The position numbers and the translations under genes are program-made. 64,000 nucleotides of DNA from Treponema parvum. GTDB taxonomy: Bacteria; Spirochaetota; Spirochaetia; Treponematales; Treponemataceae. Location: positions 2,542,001-2,606,000 of the forward strand of contig NZ_CP054257.1 of NCBI RefSeq assembly GCF_017893945.1, written 5' to 3'. This document shows positions 17,782-25,762 of this stretch, one piece after another. The notes beneath the pieces are model-generated. The model had not been told where the DNA came from and did not search any database. It saw nothing but the letters and a program-made list of their open reading frames with translations. Within the stretch, counting starts at the first letter, position 1; the number at the start of each line of letters is the position of its first letter.

Positions 17782-19881
17782 ATGGAAAGTGCTGCCCGCA
17801 AAAAACTTCAGCGTCTTACGGGGACTGTAATTCCCCTCGGCGCGCTCCGCACTGAAAAAAGTCCCGTCATCGGTGAATTTTTGTCATTGATCGACCTTAT
17901 ACCGTTTTGCCAAAAAGCGGAGCTTGAAGTCATACAGCTTTTACCCGTAAACGACAGCGGGACTCACGTTTCTCCCTACAGCGCTCTTTCGGCATTCGCC
18001 TTGCATCCTATTTACGTTTCGATTCCGGAAATCCTTGAGTTTCCTAAGCTTTATAAGAGCGACAAAGACTTTGCCGGCATCTATGACCGATTCATAAAAG
18101 AGCATTCAAAAGCCGCGTCTAAAAAAAGCAACCGCTATGACTACGAAGCGATTCTTGAAAATAAGACCGCGCTGCTGAAGCGCATTTTCGAAAAAAGCGA
18201 AATTGCCGCCGGGCATGTCGGTTCAAAACGCTGTTCGTCGGACGGGAGAGGCTTAAAAACCGCAGCCTCGGAATATGAGGACTTTTCTCTATGGCTTAAA
18301 AAAAACGGCTGGGTAAAAGGCTATGCCGTATTTAAAGCCTTAAAAGAAAAACACCTGCAGGCCTCATGGAAGACTTGGCCTGAAAAAGACCGTAAAGCCG
18401 ATGCGGAGCTTTTATGGGATACCGAAGACGTAACTCGTTGTAAACTGCAGCTTTTTTACGCGTGGGTGCAATTCGTCTGCCACGTTCAGTTTAAAAAAGC
18501 AGCGGACGCCGTTGCCGATGCGGGGATACTTTTAAAAGGCGACATACCGATTTTGATGAATGAGGATTCGTGCGACTGTTGGGAAAACGGCTATGTTTTC
18601 GATCACGGTTTTAGGGCGGGAAGTCCGCCTGACGGCGACAACCCGAGCGGGCAAAACTGGGGCTTTCCCGTATATAACTGGAAACAGCTAAAAAAAAGAA
18701 ATTATTCATGGTGGAAGGAGCGGCTTGCTTTTGCCTCTCAGTATTATAAGGCCTACAGGCTTGATCACATACTAGGTTTTTTTAGAATTTGGGCCGTTCC
18801 CGAAGACGATGTGTCGGCGGAACTAGGACATGCCGAGCCTTTTGTTCCTTGTACTAAAGATGAGCTCGAACGGCTGGGATTCGACGAAGGCAGGATTCAC
18901 TGGCTTAGTGAACCGCACATTCCTACAAAAGTCGTTGAAGATATTACATGGAATCATGAAAACGCTCATAGAATTCTCTCAACAGTTGCAAACCGCATCG
19001 GAAGCGAAGAACTTTGGAATTTCAAAAAAGAACTGAAAGGCAGCAAGGAAATTTATTCCTTGGATTTTTCGTCTTTGTGCGCTCAGGATGCGGAAAAACG
19101 CATAAAAGACGAACTTTGTAAATATTGGACGGACAGGTGCATTCTACAGATAAAAAAAGACATGTTCGTTCCCGTGTGGAAATACAAGGATTCTACGGCA
19201 TGGAAATCTTTAAACATTGACGAACGGGAAAAGCTTGAAAATCTGTTTGAAAAAAAAGATGCCGAACAAAACGAATTGTGGAAAAGCGACGCTTCTGAAA
19301 TTCTTAAAGAACTCACGTCTTCGGTTAGTATGATACCCTGCGGCGAAGACTTAGGCGTTTCTCTGGAATGCGTTCCCGCTGTTATGAATCTTTGCGGAAT
19401 TTTGTCGCTGAAAGTAGTGCGCTGGTGCCGTAATTGGGCGCAAGAAAAGCAGCCTTTCATTCCCTTTGAAGAATATCCGCCGTATTCGGTTACCGCAAGC
19501 TCCGTTCACGACTCTTCCACGCTGCGCCAATGGTGGGAAACAGAAAAGGATTCCGTAGAAGCTTTTATAAAGGCCTTCGCTTTGAATAAAGATTTAGATT
19601 CCGATTTTTCACCGGAAACTGCGTATCTGATCCTTGAAAAAACCGCGCATAGCGCAAGTTTCTGGTGCGTACATCCTCTGCAGGATTTTTTATACCTTGC
19701 AAAGGAATATTATCTTAACGAAAGCTCCGACGAGCGCATAAACGTGCCCGGCACAGTTACAAACACCAATTGGGTGTACCGTATGCCCGTATCCGTAGAA
19801 GAGCTTTCCAAAAACAAGAGCCTATGCGATTCGATAAAAAGAATTTCTGAAATTCACAAAGATAAAGGCGGCCAGAGATGA
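17782..19881 (+). CDS. malQ: 4-alpha-glucanotransferase (amylomaltase, GH77)
   Basis: Transfers maltodextrin segments between alpha-1,4-glucans, releasing glucose, in the cytoplasm. The GH77 nucleophile is D328 (YRLDHILGF), the acid/base E522 (CGEDLGV) and the stabilising Asp is in SSVHDSSTLRQWW. 699 aa is longer than the bacterial core enzyme of ~500, with an insertion near residues 110-200 that includes a Lys-rich helix. The next gene, a GH13 protein, overlaps by four bases (ATGA), so the two are coupled and presumably act on the same glycogen or starch pool. Confidence 0.94.
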   Translation: MESAARKKLQRLTGTVIPLGALRTEKSPVIGEFLSLIDLIPFCQKAELEVIQLLPVNDSGTHVSPYSALSAFALHPIYVSIPEILEFPKLYKSDKDFAGIYDRFIKEHSKAASKKSNRYDYEAILENKTALLKRIFEKSEIAAGHVGSKRCSSDGRGLKTAASEYEDFSLWLKKNGWVKGYAVFKALKEKHLQASWKTWPEKDRKADAELLWDTEDVTRCKLQLFYAWVQFVCHVQFKKAADAVADAGILLKGDIPILMNEDSCDCWENGYVFDHGFRAGSPPDGDNPSGQNWGFPVYNWKQLKKRNYSWWKERLAFASQYYKAYRLDHILGFFRIWAVPEDDVSAELGHAEPFVPCTKDELERLGFDEGRIHWLSEPHIPTKVVEDITWNHENAHRILSTVANRIGSEELWNFKKELKGSKEIYSLDFSSLCAQDAEKRIKDELCKYWTDRCILQIKKDMFVPVWKYKDSTAWKSLNIDEREKLENLFEKKDAEQNELWKSDASEILKELTSSVSMIPCGEDLGVSLECVPAVMNLCGILSLKVVRWCRNWAQEKQPFIPFEEYPPYSVTASSVHDSSTLRQWWETEKDSVEAFIKAFALNKDLDSDFSPETAYLILEKTAHSASFWCVHPLQDFLYLAKEYYLNESSDERINVPGTVTNTNWVYRMPVSVEELSKNKSLCDSIKRISEIHKDKGGQR

Positions 19882-22800
19882 AAAAAGACTTACCCGTATC
19901 GTATAACGAATTTCATGTAAGTAAAACTGTAAGAGATATGTGCGGCTTCGCCGACACACTTTTTTCTTCTTCAGGCAACGTCGTTTTTAGGAACATACGC
20001 GCCGTCCGCCTTTTCGCGCAAAAACTGAACGCACTTTTTGATGCGCAAAAAACTCCGGAGCTGAAAATTTCCGCAGGAAATTTAAATGCCATGGGACTTA
20101 TTGACGAAATTTTCCACATCGTAAGCATGATTTACCGGCGGGACAAATACAGGGCCGCTTTTTTTGAAGCCTTGGAAGCTCTTGATAAAAAATTCGGAAA
20201 AGAAAAAGTCGACGGCATGCTGCTCTGCTTTGTAGAAAATTTTCCGTCTACGGAAGTGTATGCGAAAAAGATTTTTGTCCGCGATTTTTTAAATAAAAAA
20301 GCGTTCGACCAAGGCGTCCGAGCGGAAAGGGAAAACCGAGAAAGCGTTTTGGAAGAGCTTATTCTGCTTTATCTTGCAAACGAAAATCCGGCTTTCAAAC
20401 CTTTTAAAATTCTGTTCGACGATTCTCCTCTTAAAGAGCTTTCAATATACAAGGATGCGTGGACGGAAATCAAGGCGTTTTTTAAAGCAAAACCGGTGTT
20501 CGGACCGTTCAGCCACGATCTCATCACCATGCTGAGGGAACCTGTCATTTTCAGTCCTAACGACTTACGCGGCCAGCTGGAATACATAAAAAAACATTGG
20601 GTTCCGTTTTTCCCCGAGCTCGCGGAAATAGTTTCGCTTCTCTTGTCTTCGCTTGATCTTCTTTCCGAAGAAGCTAAAGCCGCTTGGAGGGCGCCGAATG
20701 CGGGCGGAGCTCTTCCCGACATGTCGGCGTACAGTTATGAAAATTTAATGAACGAGTACGAAAGGTTTAGTCCCGACCGGGAATGGATGCCGAAAGTGGT
20801 TCTTATGGCAAAATCCGTTCTGGTTTGGCTTGATCAGCTCGGCAAAAAATATAACAGAAGCATAACCCGTCTGGATCAAATTCCCGACGAAGAGATAAAC
20901 ATACTTGCCGACGAAGGCTTTACGGGGCTTTGGCTCATAGGTTTGTGGGAAAGAAGCTCTGCAAGCCGCCGCATAAAACAGCTGTGCGGAAATCCCGAGG
21001 CGGCAGCGAGCGCTTATAGCCTTTACGATTACGACATCGCAGCGAATATCGGCGGCTGGGACGCGATAAACGACCTTAGGTTCCGTCTCTGGAAGCGCGG
21101 AATAAGGCTTGCATCCGACATGGTTCCGAATCATACGGGAATGGATTCCCGCTGGATTTCCGAAAAACCGGATCTGTTTATCCAGCGCAAAGACAATCCT
21201 TTTCCTCAATACACTTTTAACGGGGAAGATCTTTCTCACGACCCGCGCATAGGCATATACCTTGAAGACCACTATTACAACAGATCGGACTGCGCCGTCG
21301 TTTTTAAGCGGGTGGACAAGGCTACGGGCGACGTTCGCTATATTTATCACGGTAACGACGGAACGGGCATGCCGTGGAACGATACGGCTCAAATCGATTT
21401 TTTAAATCCTGCCGCCCGTGAAGAAATAATCCAAAAAATTTTGCATGTCGCAAGAAATTTTCCCATAATCCGGTTTGACGCCGCCATGGTTTTGGCAAAA
21501 AAACACATACGGCGGCTTTGGTATCCGGAGCCGGGAAGGGGCGGCGACATAGCTACAAGAAGCGAAACACAGCTGTCTACAAAACAGTTTGAAGACGCCA
21601 TTCCTCAGGAATTTTGGCGTGAAGTTGTGGACAGGGTTGCAAAGGAAGTTCCGGACACCCTGCTTTTGGCCGAAGCGTTTTGGATGATGGAAGGATATTT
21701 TGTTCGCACCCTCGGAATGCACCGCGTGTACAACAGTGCGTTTATGAATATGCTAAAAAAAGAGGAAAACCAAAAATACCGGGACACCGTGAAGAATACT
21801 CTTGCCTTCGATCCGCAGGTTTTAAAACGCTTCGTCAATTTTATGAATAATCCCGATGAAGAAACCGCTGTTGCCCAGTTCGGCAAGGGCGACAAATATT
21901 TCGGCGTATGCACCCTTATGGTAACGATGCCGGGACTTCCCCTGTTCGGCCACGGGCAGATCGAAGGCTTTGAAGAAAAATACGGTATGGAATACACGAG
22001 GGCTTACAAATACGAAGTGCCCGACGAAGGTCTCATAGAGCGTCATCGCAAAGTGATCTTTCCTCTCATGAAAAAACGCTACCTCTTTGCCCAGATCGAC
22101 GATTTTTTGTTCTTCGACGTATGGAACGGTTCTTTTGTGAACGAGAATGTCTTTGCGTATTCAAACCGATGCGGCGACGAAAAAGCCGTAGTTTTTTATA
22201 ACAACAAATATGAAAGGGCTTTCGGCACGATAAAGCAGTCGGTTCCCTATGCGGTAAATACGGGCGGCGAAGGCGAAGTTCAAATGCGCTCCAGAAGCAT
22301 AGGAGAAGGACTGGGGCTCTCTTCGGAGCAAGGAAGATACTGCATATTCCGCGATCTGTCGAGCGGCCTTTGGTACGTGCGCGAAAGCTCGGATATATAC
22401 CGAAACGGCCTGTTTGTGAGTTTGAACGGGTTTGAAACTCAGGTTCTGCTTGACATACGCGAAGTTGCGGACGCGGCGGACGGGAAATGGGGAATTTTGT
22501 GCAGTAATTTGGCGGGCAAGGGCGTCCCCGATCTGGAAATTGCATGGCAGGAGCTTGCGTACAAAGAACTGTATGAAGCGCTGGGCGCCTTTATGTCGGC
22601 GGAATTCATAAGATCCGTAAACGGAATTTTATATCCGGCGGATATTCCGCCTGAAACCGAAAGCGGCTCGGCTGTCCGCATGCATGGCGGCGCGGATACC
22701 GCCGGCGCGGCTGCCGAAGGCAAAAACTCCGCCTATGCGGATGCCGCAGAAAATGACTCGGCTGTCCGCGCCGCTGTGGGCGGCCGCACAGATTCTGCCG

Positions 22801-23714
22801 GCGCTGCCGCAGCGTTGAAATCGCTAAATTCGATCCTCGGAAAGGTAAAGCCGTATGCGCTCGTCTTTTATTCTTCGGCCGCAGAGTTTTACGCAAAAGA
22901 AAAAACCTCTGCGGATAATGAGAACTTAAAGCCTGTAGGTGCGGCAAAGATGATGAGCGCCGTAAAGACGGCGGATAGCGCAAAGCCGGTGGGCTCCGTA
23001 AAGCCGGCCTCCTTTATGCCGGAAAAAGAATTCCGCACGTTTTCAAAAAAAGCCGAAATTCTTGTCAATCTTGCCCAAAAGTCCCGAAATCTTAAATCTT
23101 CTGAAAACGATGCGCTTTCAAAATTTGCGGCAGAAAATCCTCTGTCACTGAACGCTTTGTTCTGCTTGGCGGCGACAGGCAGTTTTGCAAAAACATCGGC
23201 CGCGCTTAAATGGGCATTGCCCAGAAAATTTTGCGCTTTCTTCGCCGATGCGGGAATAACCGCTCCCGGTTTGTATAAGGATCTTGAAACTATGTTCATC
23301 TTAGGCGGATTTACTCCTTTTAAAAAGCAAAAACTTAAAAACGAGGTTTCAAAGAGCTTAATAAAAAAAGACGCATATTCGGTTGCAAAATTCATGATGA
23401 AAAGCGAATTTTCGGCCGCCTTATGCGGTGTAAATGAGTTCGGCGGAGTGCTGTGGTTTAATAAAGAAGCTTCGGAGAGATCTTTAAACCTTTTTGCCGC
23501 CCTTAACATGTTTGAACTTGAAGCCTCCGTGCGCGGAGACTCTCTTGCCGAAAAACAAAGCGCCGTCTTGAAAATGCACAAGATGCTTTCGGACGCTCAA
23601 AAAAAATCCGAGTATAAGGTGGAAAGATTCTTAAAGGAATTCGAACCTAACGGAAAGCCCTTGAAAACAGTCAAAGAAAAAAGCGCAAAGGCCGTTAAAG
23701 CGCCTGCCGAATAA
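19878..23714 (+). CDS. Very large GH13 alpha-amylase family protein
   Basis: A 1278-aa glycoside hydrolase family 13 protein without signal peptide, so cytoplasmic. Residues 1-310 are helical and unique; the GH13 barrel runs from ~330 to ~750. Region I is DMVPNHTG, the nucleophile D534 is in IRFDAAM, the acid/base E599 in LLAEAFW. Region IV reads NNPDE instead of NHD, so the usual histidine is missing. Residues ~925-985 and ~1010-1045 are Ala/Lys-rich low complexity, followed by a ~220-residue helical C-terminus. Start overlaps the malQ stop. Activity (branching, debranching, maltogenic or a phosphorylase-type reaction) cannot be assigned. Confidence 0.88.
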   Translation: MKKDLPVSYNEFHVSKTVRDMCGFADTLFSSSGNVVFRNIRAVRLFAQKLNALFDAQKTPELKISAGNLNAMGLIDEIFHIVSMIYRRDKYRAAFFEALEALDKKFGKEKVDGMLLCFVENFPSTEVYAKKIFVRDFLNKKAFDQGVRAERENRESVLEELILLYLANENPAFKPFKILFDDSPLKELSIYKDAWTEIKAFFKAKPVFGPFSHDLITMLREPVIFSPNDLRGQLEYIKKHWVPFFPELAEIVSLLLSSLDLLSEEAKAAWRAPNAGGALPDMSAYSYENLMNEYERFSPDREWMPKVVLMAKSVLVWLDQLGKKYNRSITRLDQIPDEEINILADEGFTGLWLIGLWERSSASRRIKQLCGNPEAAASAYSLYDYDIAANIGGWDAINDLRFRLWKRGIRLASDMVPNHTGMDSRWISEKPDLFIQRKDNPFPQYTFNGEDLSHDPRIGIYLEDHYYNRSDCAVVFKRVDKATGDVRYIYHGNDGTGMPWNDTAQIDFLNPAAREEIIQKILHVARNFPIIRFDAAMVLAKKHIRRLWYPEPGRGGDIATRSETQLSTKQFEDAIPQEFWREVVDRVAKEVPDTLLLAEAFWMMEGYFVRTLGMHRVYNSAFMNMLKKEENQKYRDTVKNTLAFDPQVLKRFVNFMNNPDEETAVAQFGKGDKYFGVCTLMVTMPGLPLFGHGQIEGFEEKYGMEYTRAYKYEVPDEGLIERHRKVIFPLMKKRYLFAQIDDFLFFDVWNGSFVNENVFAYSNRCGDEKAVVFYNNKYERAFGTIKQSVPYAVNTGGEGEVQMRSRSIGEGLGLSSEQGRYCIFRDLSSGLWYVRESSDIYRNGLFVSLNGFETQVLLDIREVADAADGKWGILCSNLAGKGVPDLEIAWQELAYKELYEALGAFMSAEFIRSVNGILYPADIPPETESGSAVRMHGGADTAGAAAEGKNSAYADAAENDSAVRAAVGGRTDSAGAAAALKSLNSILGKVKPYALVFYSSAAEFYAKEKTSADNENLKPVGAAKMMSAVKTADSAKPVGSVKPASFMPEKEFRTFSKKAEILVNLAQKSRNLKSSENDALSKFAAENPLSLNALFCLAATGSFAKTSAALKWALPRKFCAFFADAGITAPGLYKDLETMFILGGFTPFKKQKLKNEVSKSLIKKDAYSVAKFMMKSEFSAALCGVNEFGGVLWFNKEASERSLNLFAALNMFELEASVRGDSLAEKQSAVLKMHKMLSDAQKKSEYKVERFLKEFEPNGKPLKTVKEKSAKAVKAPAE

Positions 23715-23790: not shown

Positions 23791-25122
23791 TTAAAAACTT
23801 GCGGCCGTAAAATTTTTTGATACGTCCCGCGCTATGCTTAAGACTTCGCTTGAAGACCTCATTAGAGGCTTTCCTATATGCGCGGGGCGGACGGAAGCGG
23901 CAACATTTTCAGGCATTTGCAGATTTTCCCCGATACATCGGCGTATAAAATCCGCATCGAGCGACGGATGATCGTTTACAACTAAGACAAGGGTTCCGTT
24001 GTCTTGGTACGTAGCGGCTTTTTGCTTTAGAGCAGCCGCGTAAGCGCTCGCCGTGTTTTTATCTGCGTAAAGGTGATATTTCATAAACAGCTCTTTTGCG
24101 GCAAAGACCGTATCGTCGTCCGTGATCTTAGCTGCATAAACAAGGTTATGCATGAGAGCCGTATTTGCGGAAAAAATTTCTTCCAATCTTTCAAGGTTTG
24201 AAAGGCAGGAAGGATCAGTTTTTCCGCGCTCGTTCACCGGTACGAGGGCGTCGAGCATCACGCAGCGGCCTGCAGGATCCACCGTAAGGGCGTCGGTCGC
24301 CGGCAGGATAAAGCCCGAAACGGGCATGGCGATCTTCCAGCTGTAAAGCCCTGCCGTAACGTTGCTGAAATTTCCCGGCGGCATGGCATAGTAAATATTT
24401 CCCGTTACTTCTCTCTTTAACCTTGAAAATGCAAAAGGATAGAAAAATGCCTGAGGAAAAAGTCTTCCTATGTTTGCCGTGTTTGCGACGGTCAGATTAA
24501 GATCTTCGACGTTTTTATGATCCGAAAAAATATCTTTTACGATTTTATTGCAATCTTCGATATTTCCGTCAATCTCTATCGGAAAAAGGTTTCCCCCGTT
24601 CCAAATAAGATCTTCTTCCGAAAGTCCTTTTACGGAATTTTTAGGGAACAAAAGTACGGCCTTTATGCGTTTTTTGCCGCGCAGCGCGTTCGCTAAAGAG
24701 GCCGCCAGAGCGGAGGCGTTTACGTCAAGGATGACGGCGTTTGTGTCCTTCATCAAAAGTATGTTTTCAAGGGCTTCGATGAGGTAGCTTACGCCGAAAT
24801 CGCGGTGCCACCCTGTAGGGCCGTGAAAAAGTTCCAAAGTATAAAGCCCCTTGTCCAATTTGGACAGTTTGGGTTCATAAGGAAACGCTTGTGCGGCTAT
24901 CGCTTCGCATATTATCGGACTGAACTCTTCGTTTACGCATGCGAGCGTAAGAGCTCCCGCAACGGAAGCGTAGGTCGTTTTTTCATTTGTAAATAAGATC
25001 CATCGGCGCAGGTCGTTCACTTCCGCAGGAACGTAAAGACCTCCGTCTCCCGGCATGCAGTCGCGAATAGCTTGTTCAAAGCCTACGTTCAATTTTTTAT
25101 TTCTCGTACTGGTAAAACGCAT
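23791..25122 (-). CDS. Threonine synthase-like protein lacking the PLP lysine
   Basis: Homologue of threonine synthase (fold-type II PLP enzyme), 443 aa, with the family layout intact: an N-terminal MRFTSTRN start, ELFHGPT at 97-103, TANIGRLFPQ and YYAMPPGNFSN in the second half. The PLP-binding lysine expected in HGPTxAFKDFG is Arg107 here (HGPTGWHRDFG), and the SGDTG phosphate-binding motif is replaced by LDVNASA. It is therefore unlikely to make threonine. The gene is intact with no frameshift, so a new role (pseudoenzyme) is inferred. Its promoter abuts the ATG. No threonine-pathway genes are adjacent. Confidence 0.85.
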   Translation of the reverse strand: MRFTSTRNKKLNVGFEQAIRDCMPGDGGLYVPAEVNDLRRWILFTNEKTTYASVAGALTLACVNEEFSPIICEAIAAQAFPYEPKLSKLDKGLYTLELFHGPTGWHRDFGVSYLIEALENILLMKDTNAVILDVNASALAASLANALRGKKRIKAVLLFPKNSVKGLSEEDLIWNGGNLFPIEIDGNIEDCNKIVKDIFSDHKNVEDLNLTVANTANIGRLFPQAFFYPFAFSRLKREVTGNIYYAMPPGNFSNVTAGLYSWKIAMPVSGFILPATDALTVDPAGRCVMLDALVPVNERGKTDPSCLSNLERLEEIFSANTALMHNLVYAAKITDDDTVFAAKELFMKYHLYADKNTASAYAAALKQKAATYQDNGTLVLVVNDHPSLDADFIRRCIGENLQMPENVAASVRPAHIGKPLMRSSSEVLSIARDVSKNFTAASF

Positions 25123-25128
25123 AAAAAG

Positions 25129-25157
25129 ATTATATCACTATATGAGAGCTTTGCCAA
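25129..25157 (-). promoter_or_regulatory. Leaderless promoter of the ThrC-like gene
   Basis: Minus strand: TTGGCA (25157-25152), 17-base spacer, perfect TATAAT (25134-25129) with an extended TGA before it, six bases to ATG at 25122. Confidence 0.72.
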
Positions 25158-25226: not shown

Positions 25227-25318
25227 ATTTATTATATTAAAATCGAAACGGCTTAAAATGTTCTTTAAATCCCGTTTTGCAACGAGACCGATTCGGTTTT
25301 ATAAAAACAGGAGGCTTT

Positions 25319-25762
25319 ATGCTTAAAAAGAAATTTGCGATTGCATTGGCTGTTGCGTCATTGGCGTTTACGGCAAGCACATTTGCAACGGCTGTAGGTC
25401 CGGGTCTCGGATATGTATTCTTCGGCAAAAAGAGCGGTGCCGGATGGGACATCCTTGCCGCTACGACAAACGGATGCTGTTTCACTCAATTTTTTGCCAT
25501 CACGTTCGGAACGTCCGGATATGAAGGCGGACTTATCGGTATGGAAGAAACCGATAAATTCATTGCCGAAAACATGGACTCTCTTGCGGCGGACATAGCA
25601 AAAGGCGACGGCGAATATGTCGACACCCTTTCGACCATGCTTAATGTCGCGGATAAAGTGGCATTTAAAGCTGCCCTGCAGGATAACTTTGATGAAATTT
25701 TCTCTTCATCCGAAGTTTCTGCAAAAGAAGTCAGCGCAAAGATCTATTCTTTTGTAGGCTAA
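25319..25762 (+). CDS. DUF3015 exported protein
   Basis: Small exported protein of 147 aa. The start ATG at 25319 follows AGGAGG; it opens a clear signal peptide (MLKKKFAIALAVASLAF, cleavage likely after TFA). The mature part has the DUF3015 pattern: GPGLGYVFFGKKSG, then ILAATTNG and FAITFGTSG. The second half is acidic and helical. It stands alone between its own promoter and a strong terminator, with a near-ideal ribosome site, so the protein is probably abundant. Function of the family is not known. Confidence 0.82.
   Translation: MLKKKFAIALAVASLAFTASTFATAVGPGLGYVFFGKKSGAGWDILAATTNGCCFTQFFAITFGTSGYEGGLIGMEETDKFIAENMDSLAADIAKGDGEYVDTLSTMLNVADKVAFKAALQDNFDEIFSSSEVSAKEVSAKIYSFVG

Follow-up and report, generated by a model that had tools for sequence, protein, structure and literature searches.

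A threonine-synthase paralogue found throughout the family of Treponema is probably a pseudoenzyme in which lysine and arginine replace each other at the Schiff-base position

Treponema parvum and its relatives carry, in addition to the canonical threonine synthase (ThrC), a ThrC-like protein that is real and family-wide and is probably a ThrC-derived pseudoenzyme. We found it encoded within a window of 64,000 nucleotides (contig NZ_CP054257.1, positions 2,542,001 to 2,606,000), and the window protein and its orthologues are together called P here. The explanation that we favour, and that we hold to be reasonably probable, is that P binds a small anionic ligand non-covalently in the old catalytic cleft and, in a regulatory or sensory role, acts on a partner. 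The features on which the analysis rests are the following (coordinates of the window):

23791..25122, minus strand: ORF of P, a 443-aa threonine-synthase-like putative pseudoenzyme (Thr_synth_N, PALP and TIGR00260 scores)
25129..25157, minus strand: putative sigma-70-like promoter TTGGCA-17-TATAAT (11/12 matches), ending 6 nt before the ATG of P
24802..24804, minus strand: CGC codon of R107, which stands where ThrC has its Schiff-base lysine (read from the sequence; K43/R37 in 80 orthologues)
24703..24720, minus strand: residues 135-140, NASALA, the former substrate-carboxylate loop TSGDTG (by alignment)
24463..24483, minus strand: residues 214-220, NTANIGR, a polar motif retained from ThrC (all 80 orthologues have N217 and R220)
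24361..24381, minus strand: residues 248-254, PPGNFSN, the former PLP-phosphate loop PSGNFGN, partly kept (by alignment and profile register)
23974..23976, minus strand: residue 383, Asn, in place of the Thr of TAHPAKF, the putative pyridine-N1 partner (by alignment)
19878..23714, plus strand: gene of a 1278-aa GH13 amylase-type protein, the convergent neighbour and synteny anchor (49 of 83 loci have it downstream of P)

The frame of P is uninterrupted and runs from an ATG through 443 codons to a stop (25122..23791). The initial annotation had placed the gene correctly and called its frame intact, which it is, also in dozens of orthologues; the strand, which was absent from that annotation, is minus. 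A second single-contig genome contains P at 98% identity with identical features. A promoter spacing like that of P was seen upstream of ~15 orthologues (judged by eye), and the upstream sequence suggests that the P transcript may be leaderless. With the Pfam models, the window protein scored 32.9 bits for Thr_synth_N (PF14821, cut-off 25) and 35.5 bits for PALP, barely over the cut-off of 35. The thrC model matched all 60 P orthologues that were scanned (best E 4.5e-40), but with TIGR00260, the NCBIfam thrC equivalog, the window protein reached 116.3 bits and so fell below the curated cut-off of 167.1, as did two further P members with 117 and 123 bits. The closest solved structures by sequence are all threonine synthases. 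An AlphaFold2 model built on an alignment of 95 relatives (pLDDT 91.5, pTM 0.91) had E. coli ThrC (1vb3) as its best structural match (Z 40.0; 404 residues aligned with an rmsd of 3.3 and 25% identity). The fold is thus confidently predicted to be that of ThrC throughout, including the Thr_synth_N domain, in agreement with the earlier remark that it is well kept.

The window genome also encodes a canonical ThrC of 487 aa with intact HGPTCAFKDFG and SGDTG motifs (at C1:1460083), which scores 245 bits with the thrC model. An 841-aa frame of the same genome contains a homoserine dehydrogenase domain. With a profile built from 60 orthologues, P was detected in 142 of the 155 sampled genomes of the family (Treponema and kin) and in 105 of the 111 high-quality ones. 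Nearly all genomes with P also have a canonical ThrC. None of the complete genomes checked had P but lacked canonical ThrC; where P occurred alone, the assembly was fragmented, and three such assemblies contain parts of thrC. Among the good genomes, four had ThrC without P and two had neither. Because ThrC accompanies P in these complete genomes and some genomes with ThrC lack P, P seems to depend on a cell that makes threonine, but not the reverse. This pattern would suit a P that forms heteromers with ThrC or another aspartate-pathway enzyme or regulates it allosterically, and the same fold class offers a precedent: TSB-like of eudicot plants is a TrpB-derived fold-type-II pseudoenzyme that has lost its activity and activates TSA (PMC12727527). 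However, the P and thrC genes are not adjacent, and three genomes of genus g45 have a ThrC only 31-33% identical to that of the window genome and still keep P, which makes an intimate complex less likely. We consider such a partnership unlikely.

Where the canonical enzyme reads HGPTxAFKDFG, the window protein reads HGPTGWHRDFG; R107 replaces the Schiff-base lysine, as the initial annotation had correctly seen, and its CGC codon is at least two base changes away from any Lys codon. Judged by this sequence, P with R107 cannot form an internal aldimine through residue 107. The ATSGDTG of ThrC has become VNASALA in the window protein (residues 134-140), and the loop Asp of TSGDTG was kept in 0% of the 80 P sequences. 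It had been claimed that SGDTG, taken as the PLP-phosphate loop, is replaced. SGDTG is indeed gone, but homology marks it as the substrate-carboxylate loop, and the phosphate loop proper is the partly kept PPGNFSN. In O-acetylserine sulfhydrylase (OASS), the residues G179-T183 hold the PLP phosphate and S274 meets the pyridine N1. The OASS loop TSGNT, which is the equivalent of SGDTG in fold-type-II PLP enzymes, binds the substrate carboxylate. The PLP-binding residues given for OASS are K44, N74 (inside TSGNT), G179, T180, G181, T183, S274 and D302 (PMC9547175, PMC12895370). The assignment of the two loops in P leans on the register of a ThrC versus CysK profile comparison, not significant as a match (E 0.037), in which FKDFG falls on IKDRA, SGDTG on SGNTG and PSGNFGN on GIGTGGT. 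The loss of the PLP site appears to go beyond the residues named at first, to the putative N1-partner Thr, which is Asn383 in the window protein. This Thr of TAHPAKF is present in all canonical and sister-family sequences and in only 3% of P.

These motifs bear on a second alternative, that P works as a lysine-independent PLP enzyme or as an amino-acid sensor, with PLP, PMP or the external aldimine of PLP and an amino acid still bound non-covalently. Most P members retain the GN of the former phosphate loop (G250 in 86%, N251 in 96%), with flanking residues that vary. In the solved structure 3vsc, a fold-type-II enzyme with its lysine mutated to alanine holds an external aldimine, and ColD/E1, lysine-less enzymes of the aminotransferase fold with His in place of Lys, are active (PMC8987622). 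Three lysines of P (K150, K154 and K236) are conserved, and one of them may take over the role of the cofactor lysine. On the other hand, 97% of P lack the N1 Thr, the substrate loop has been rewritten, and several members have a damaged phosphate loop (DCDRYGT, DSENYGN, SSSNYGN). Retained PLP binding strikes us as rather improbable. An enzyme with a new, PLP-independent chemistry in the old cleft is more doubtful still. It would fit the strong purifying selection on P and the new loop consensus, DxTxG[EG]LG, that the P clade has acquired, but the window's own lineage departs from this consensus (NASALA), and neither a new catalytic triad nor a metal site was recognizable.

Among the 80 P orthologues, position 107 is Lys in 43 and Arg in 37, and nothing else occurs there. 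Arginine in 37 of 80 sequences rules out R107 as a private oddity of the window species, which has Arg whereas its nearest relative (L032) has Lys. At least eight Lys/Arg exchanges, in both directions, are required on the tree; their exact number depends on branches of middling support, and the starred nodes alone require several events. Arg arose twice within a Lys clade (L026, L083), and changes back to Lys took place within an Arg clade (L055, L088, L090). Two of these returns bear a damaged phosphate loop (GPDTYGT in L055 and DCDRYGT in L088), and their Lys is therefore unlikely to hold PLP. As the Arg codons at 107 are mostly CGN (24 of 33), Arg is established at this position and is not one step from Lys. 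Only 3 of the 281 columns that are as variable as position 107 are two-letter columns, and position 107 is one of them. The simplest reading of this pattern is that selection at 107 keeps a positive charge and that the Schiff base is not needed. R107 as the defining trait of P was not borne out, since Lys and Arg are interchangeable and the PLP site is already degenerate in the Lys members. Some of the Lys-type orthologues, about half of all, could still be PLP enzymes.

In the tree, P groups beside ThrC paralogues of the sister family (L036-L045), and the branch that leads to P is long. The tree makes these paralogues orthologous to P, and so does the convergent amylase neighbour in three of their loci. 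Unlike P, the sister-family copies all have the Lys (10 of 10) and keep the PSGNFGN phosphate loop and the N1 Thr, and the two that were scored exceed the thrC cut-off of 167.1 (210 and 230 bits). Canonical ThrC has 83 invariant columns; the sister copies keep 56 of these, and P keeps 22. In 49 of 83 loci, a convergent GH13 gene (~1200-1390 aa) follows downstream of P. Three of these loci (L036, L037, L038) belong to the sister family, and P is therefore tied by position to the PLP-intact sister copies. The tree thus places the thrC duplication before the split of the family (Treponema and kin) from the sister family. Because the positional orthologues in the sister family still have the N1 partner and the phosphate loop as well as the Lys, the PLP site was lost at the base of the family; what went was the N1 partner, together with the substrate loop and some of the phosphate loop. 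By the same sequence comparisons, P evolved fast on its basal branch and was then held under purifying selection beside the real thrC. The dN/dS of close P pairs was 0.05-0.18 (Nei-Gojobori; synonymous sites were near saturation in some pairs), and that of the window gene versus the 98% relative was 0.23 (YN00); the gene, judged from its sequence, is not decaying. The lost active-site residues might suggest a decaying pseudogene or a sequencing error, but we can practically dismiss both of these as well as an assembly error, given open frames in ~140 genomes, dN/dS of ~0.2 or less, 98% identity in the second single-contig genome and the confident predicted fold.

Of the traits expected of a pseudoenzyme paralogue, the sequences show a lost catalytic residue, purifying selection and a retained intact paralogue. 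In the non-covalent ligand model that we favour, P would no longer work via a Lys-PLP aldimine. Residue 107 and the kept residues N214, N217, R220, N309 and R312, together with the GN (with N251) of the former phosphate loop, would hold an anionic ligand in the old cleft. This ligand would be small, phosphate- or carboxylate-bearing and of the amino-acid type. Domain closure driven by the ligand would then act on a partner, with P as the regulator or sensor; in this reading the role of P is probably non-catalytic and regulatory. A functional pseudoenzyme with a new ligand had been proposed in the initial annotation. The pseudoenzyme part agrees with a conserved and selected paralogue, a canonical thrC elsewhere in the genome, a score below the thrC cut-off and no aldimine via residue 107; the new ligand is what we infer.

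To our knowledge, few PLP-fold pseudoenzymes have been described, and we found no paper on a ThrC pseudoenzyme in the open-access literature. P shares with ThrC (E. coli 1vb3, yeast 1kl7; TIGR00260) the full-length predicted fold and the HGPT..DFG, ANxxNxxR and GN motifs. It differs from ThrC in having Arg for the Schiff-base Lys, in lacking TSGDTG and the N1 Thr, in scoring below the curated cut-off and in being a separate gene beside a real thrC. The nearest precedent is TSB-like, which is also an inactive paralogue of a fold-type-II PLP enzyme and has kept a regulatory role (PMC12727527); for P such a role would be the counterpart. Unlike P, however, TSB-like derives from TrpB, was inactivated at other active-site residues and has a known partner, TSA (PMC12727527). 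Rv3778c of M. tuberculosis is a PLP-fold protein without the PLP lysine and is thought to be non-catalytic, but it is related to cysteine desulfurases and not to ThrC (PMC12910592). In the case of P, one bacterial lineage displays the whole series from the canonical enzyme through a PLP-intact paralogue and a PLP-degenerate Lys copy to an Arg copy, with exchanges in both directions. Such a series, with natural K and R versions, makes it testable what selection keeps once catalysis goes. It is also a warning, as P genes can easily be mistaken for a second threonine synthase in annotation.

None of the genes next to P is conserved well enough to point to a pathway. The malQ gene and the 1278-aa GH13 gene (17782-23714) are convergent to P across genera and in the sister family, while the other flank is reshuffled. 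We rejected amylase/malQ as a functional partner, as these genes are convergent and not co-transcribed with P, and regard them as a synteny anchor only. A single-copy ArgR gene lies directly upstream of P on the same strand, mostly at 3-90 bp, in 21 loci (L034, L052-L055, L076, L079, L084, L085, L087, L089-L098, L111), all in one subclade of the tree. In the window genome ArgR is located away from P. ArgR was rejected as a universal partner because it is a neighbour in that subclade only, and its adjacency is a lead and no rule. As a more speculative extension, which we think improbable, P could be a family-wide sensor made from ThrC, in which a basic residue, Lys or Arg interchangeably, would hold a free anionic metabolite instead of an aldimine and which, beside ArgR in the one subclade, would report the aspartate/threonine or arginine state. 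The divergent neighbour at 25277-25762 encodes a small DUF3015 protein whose N terminus is signal-like and adjoins P in the closest relatives only.

Two further observations concern other ThrC relatives. The substrate loops of the sister-family copies (L036-L045) are variable (TTGDTG, AREDTG, AKPDTG, ARGITG), and this sequence variation suggests that their substrate may have changed. A ThrC-like protein from a different family of the same order (L075:1142-2668, plus strand) reads GPSGSSEDAG, with Glu at the Schiff-base position and the other PLP motifs gone, and is possibly an independent pseudoenzyme.
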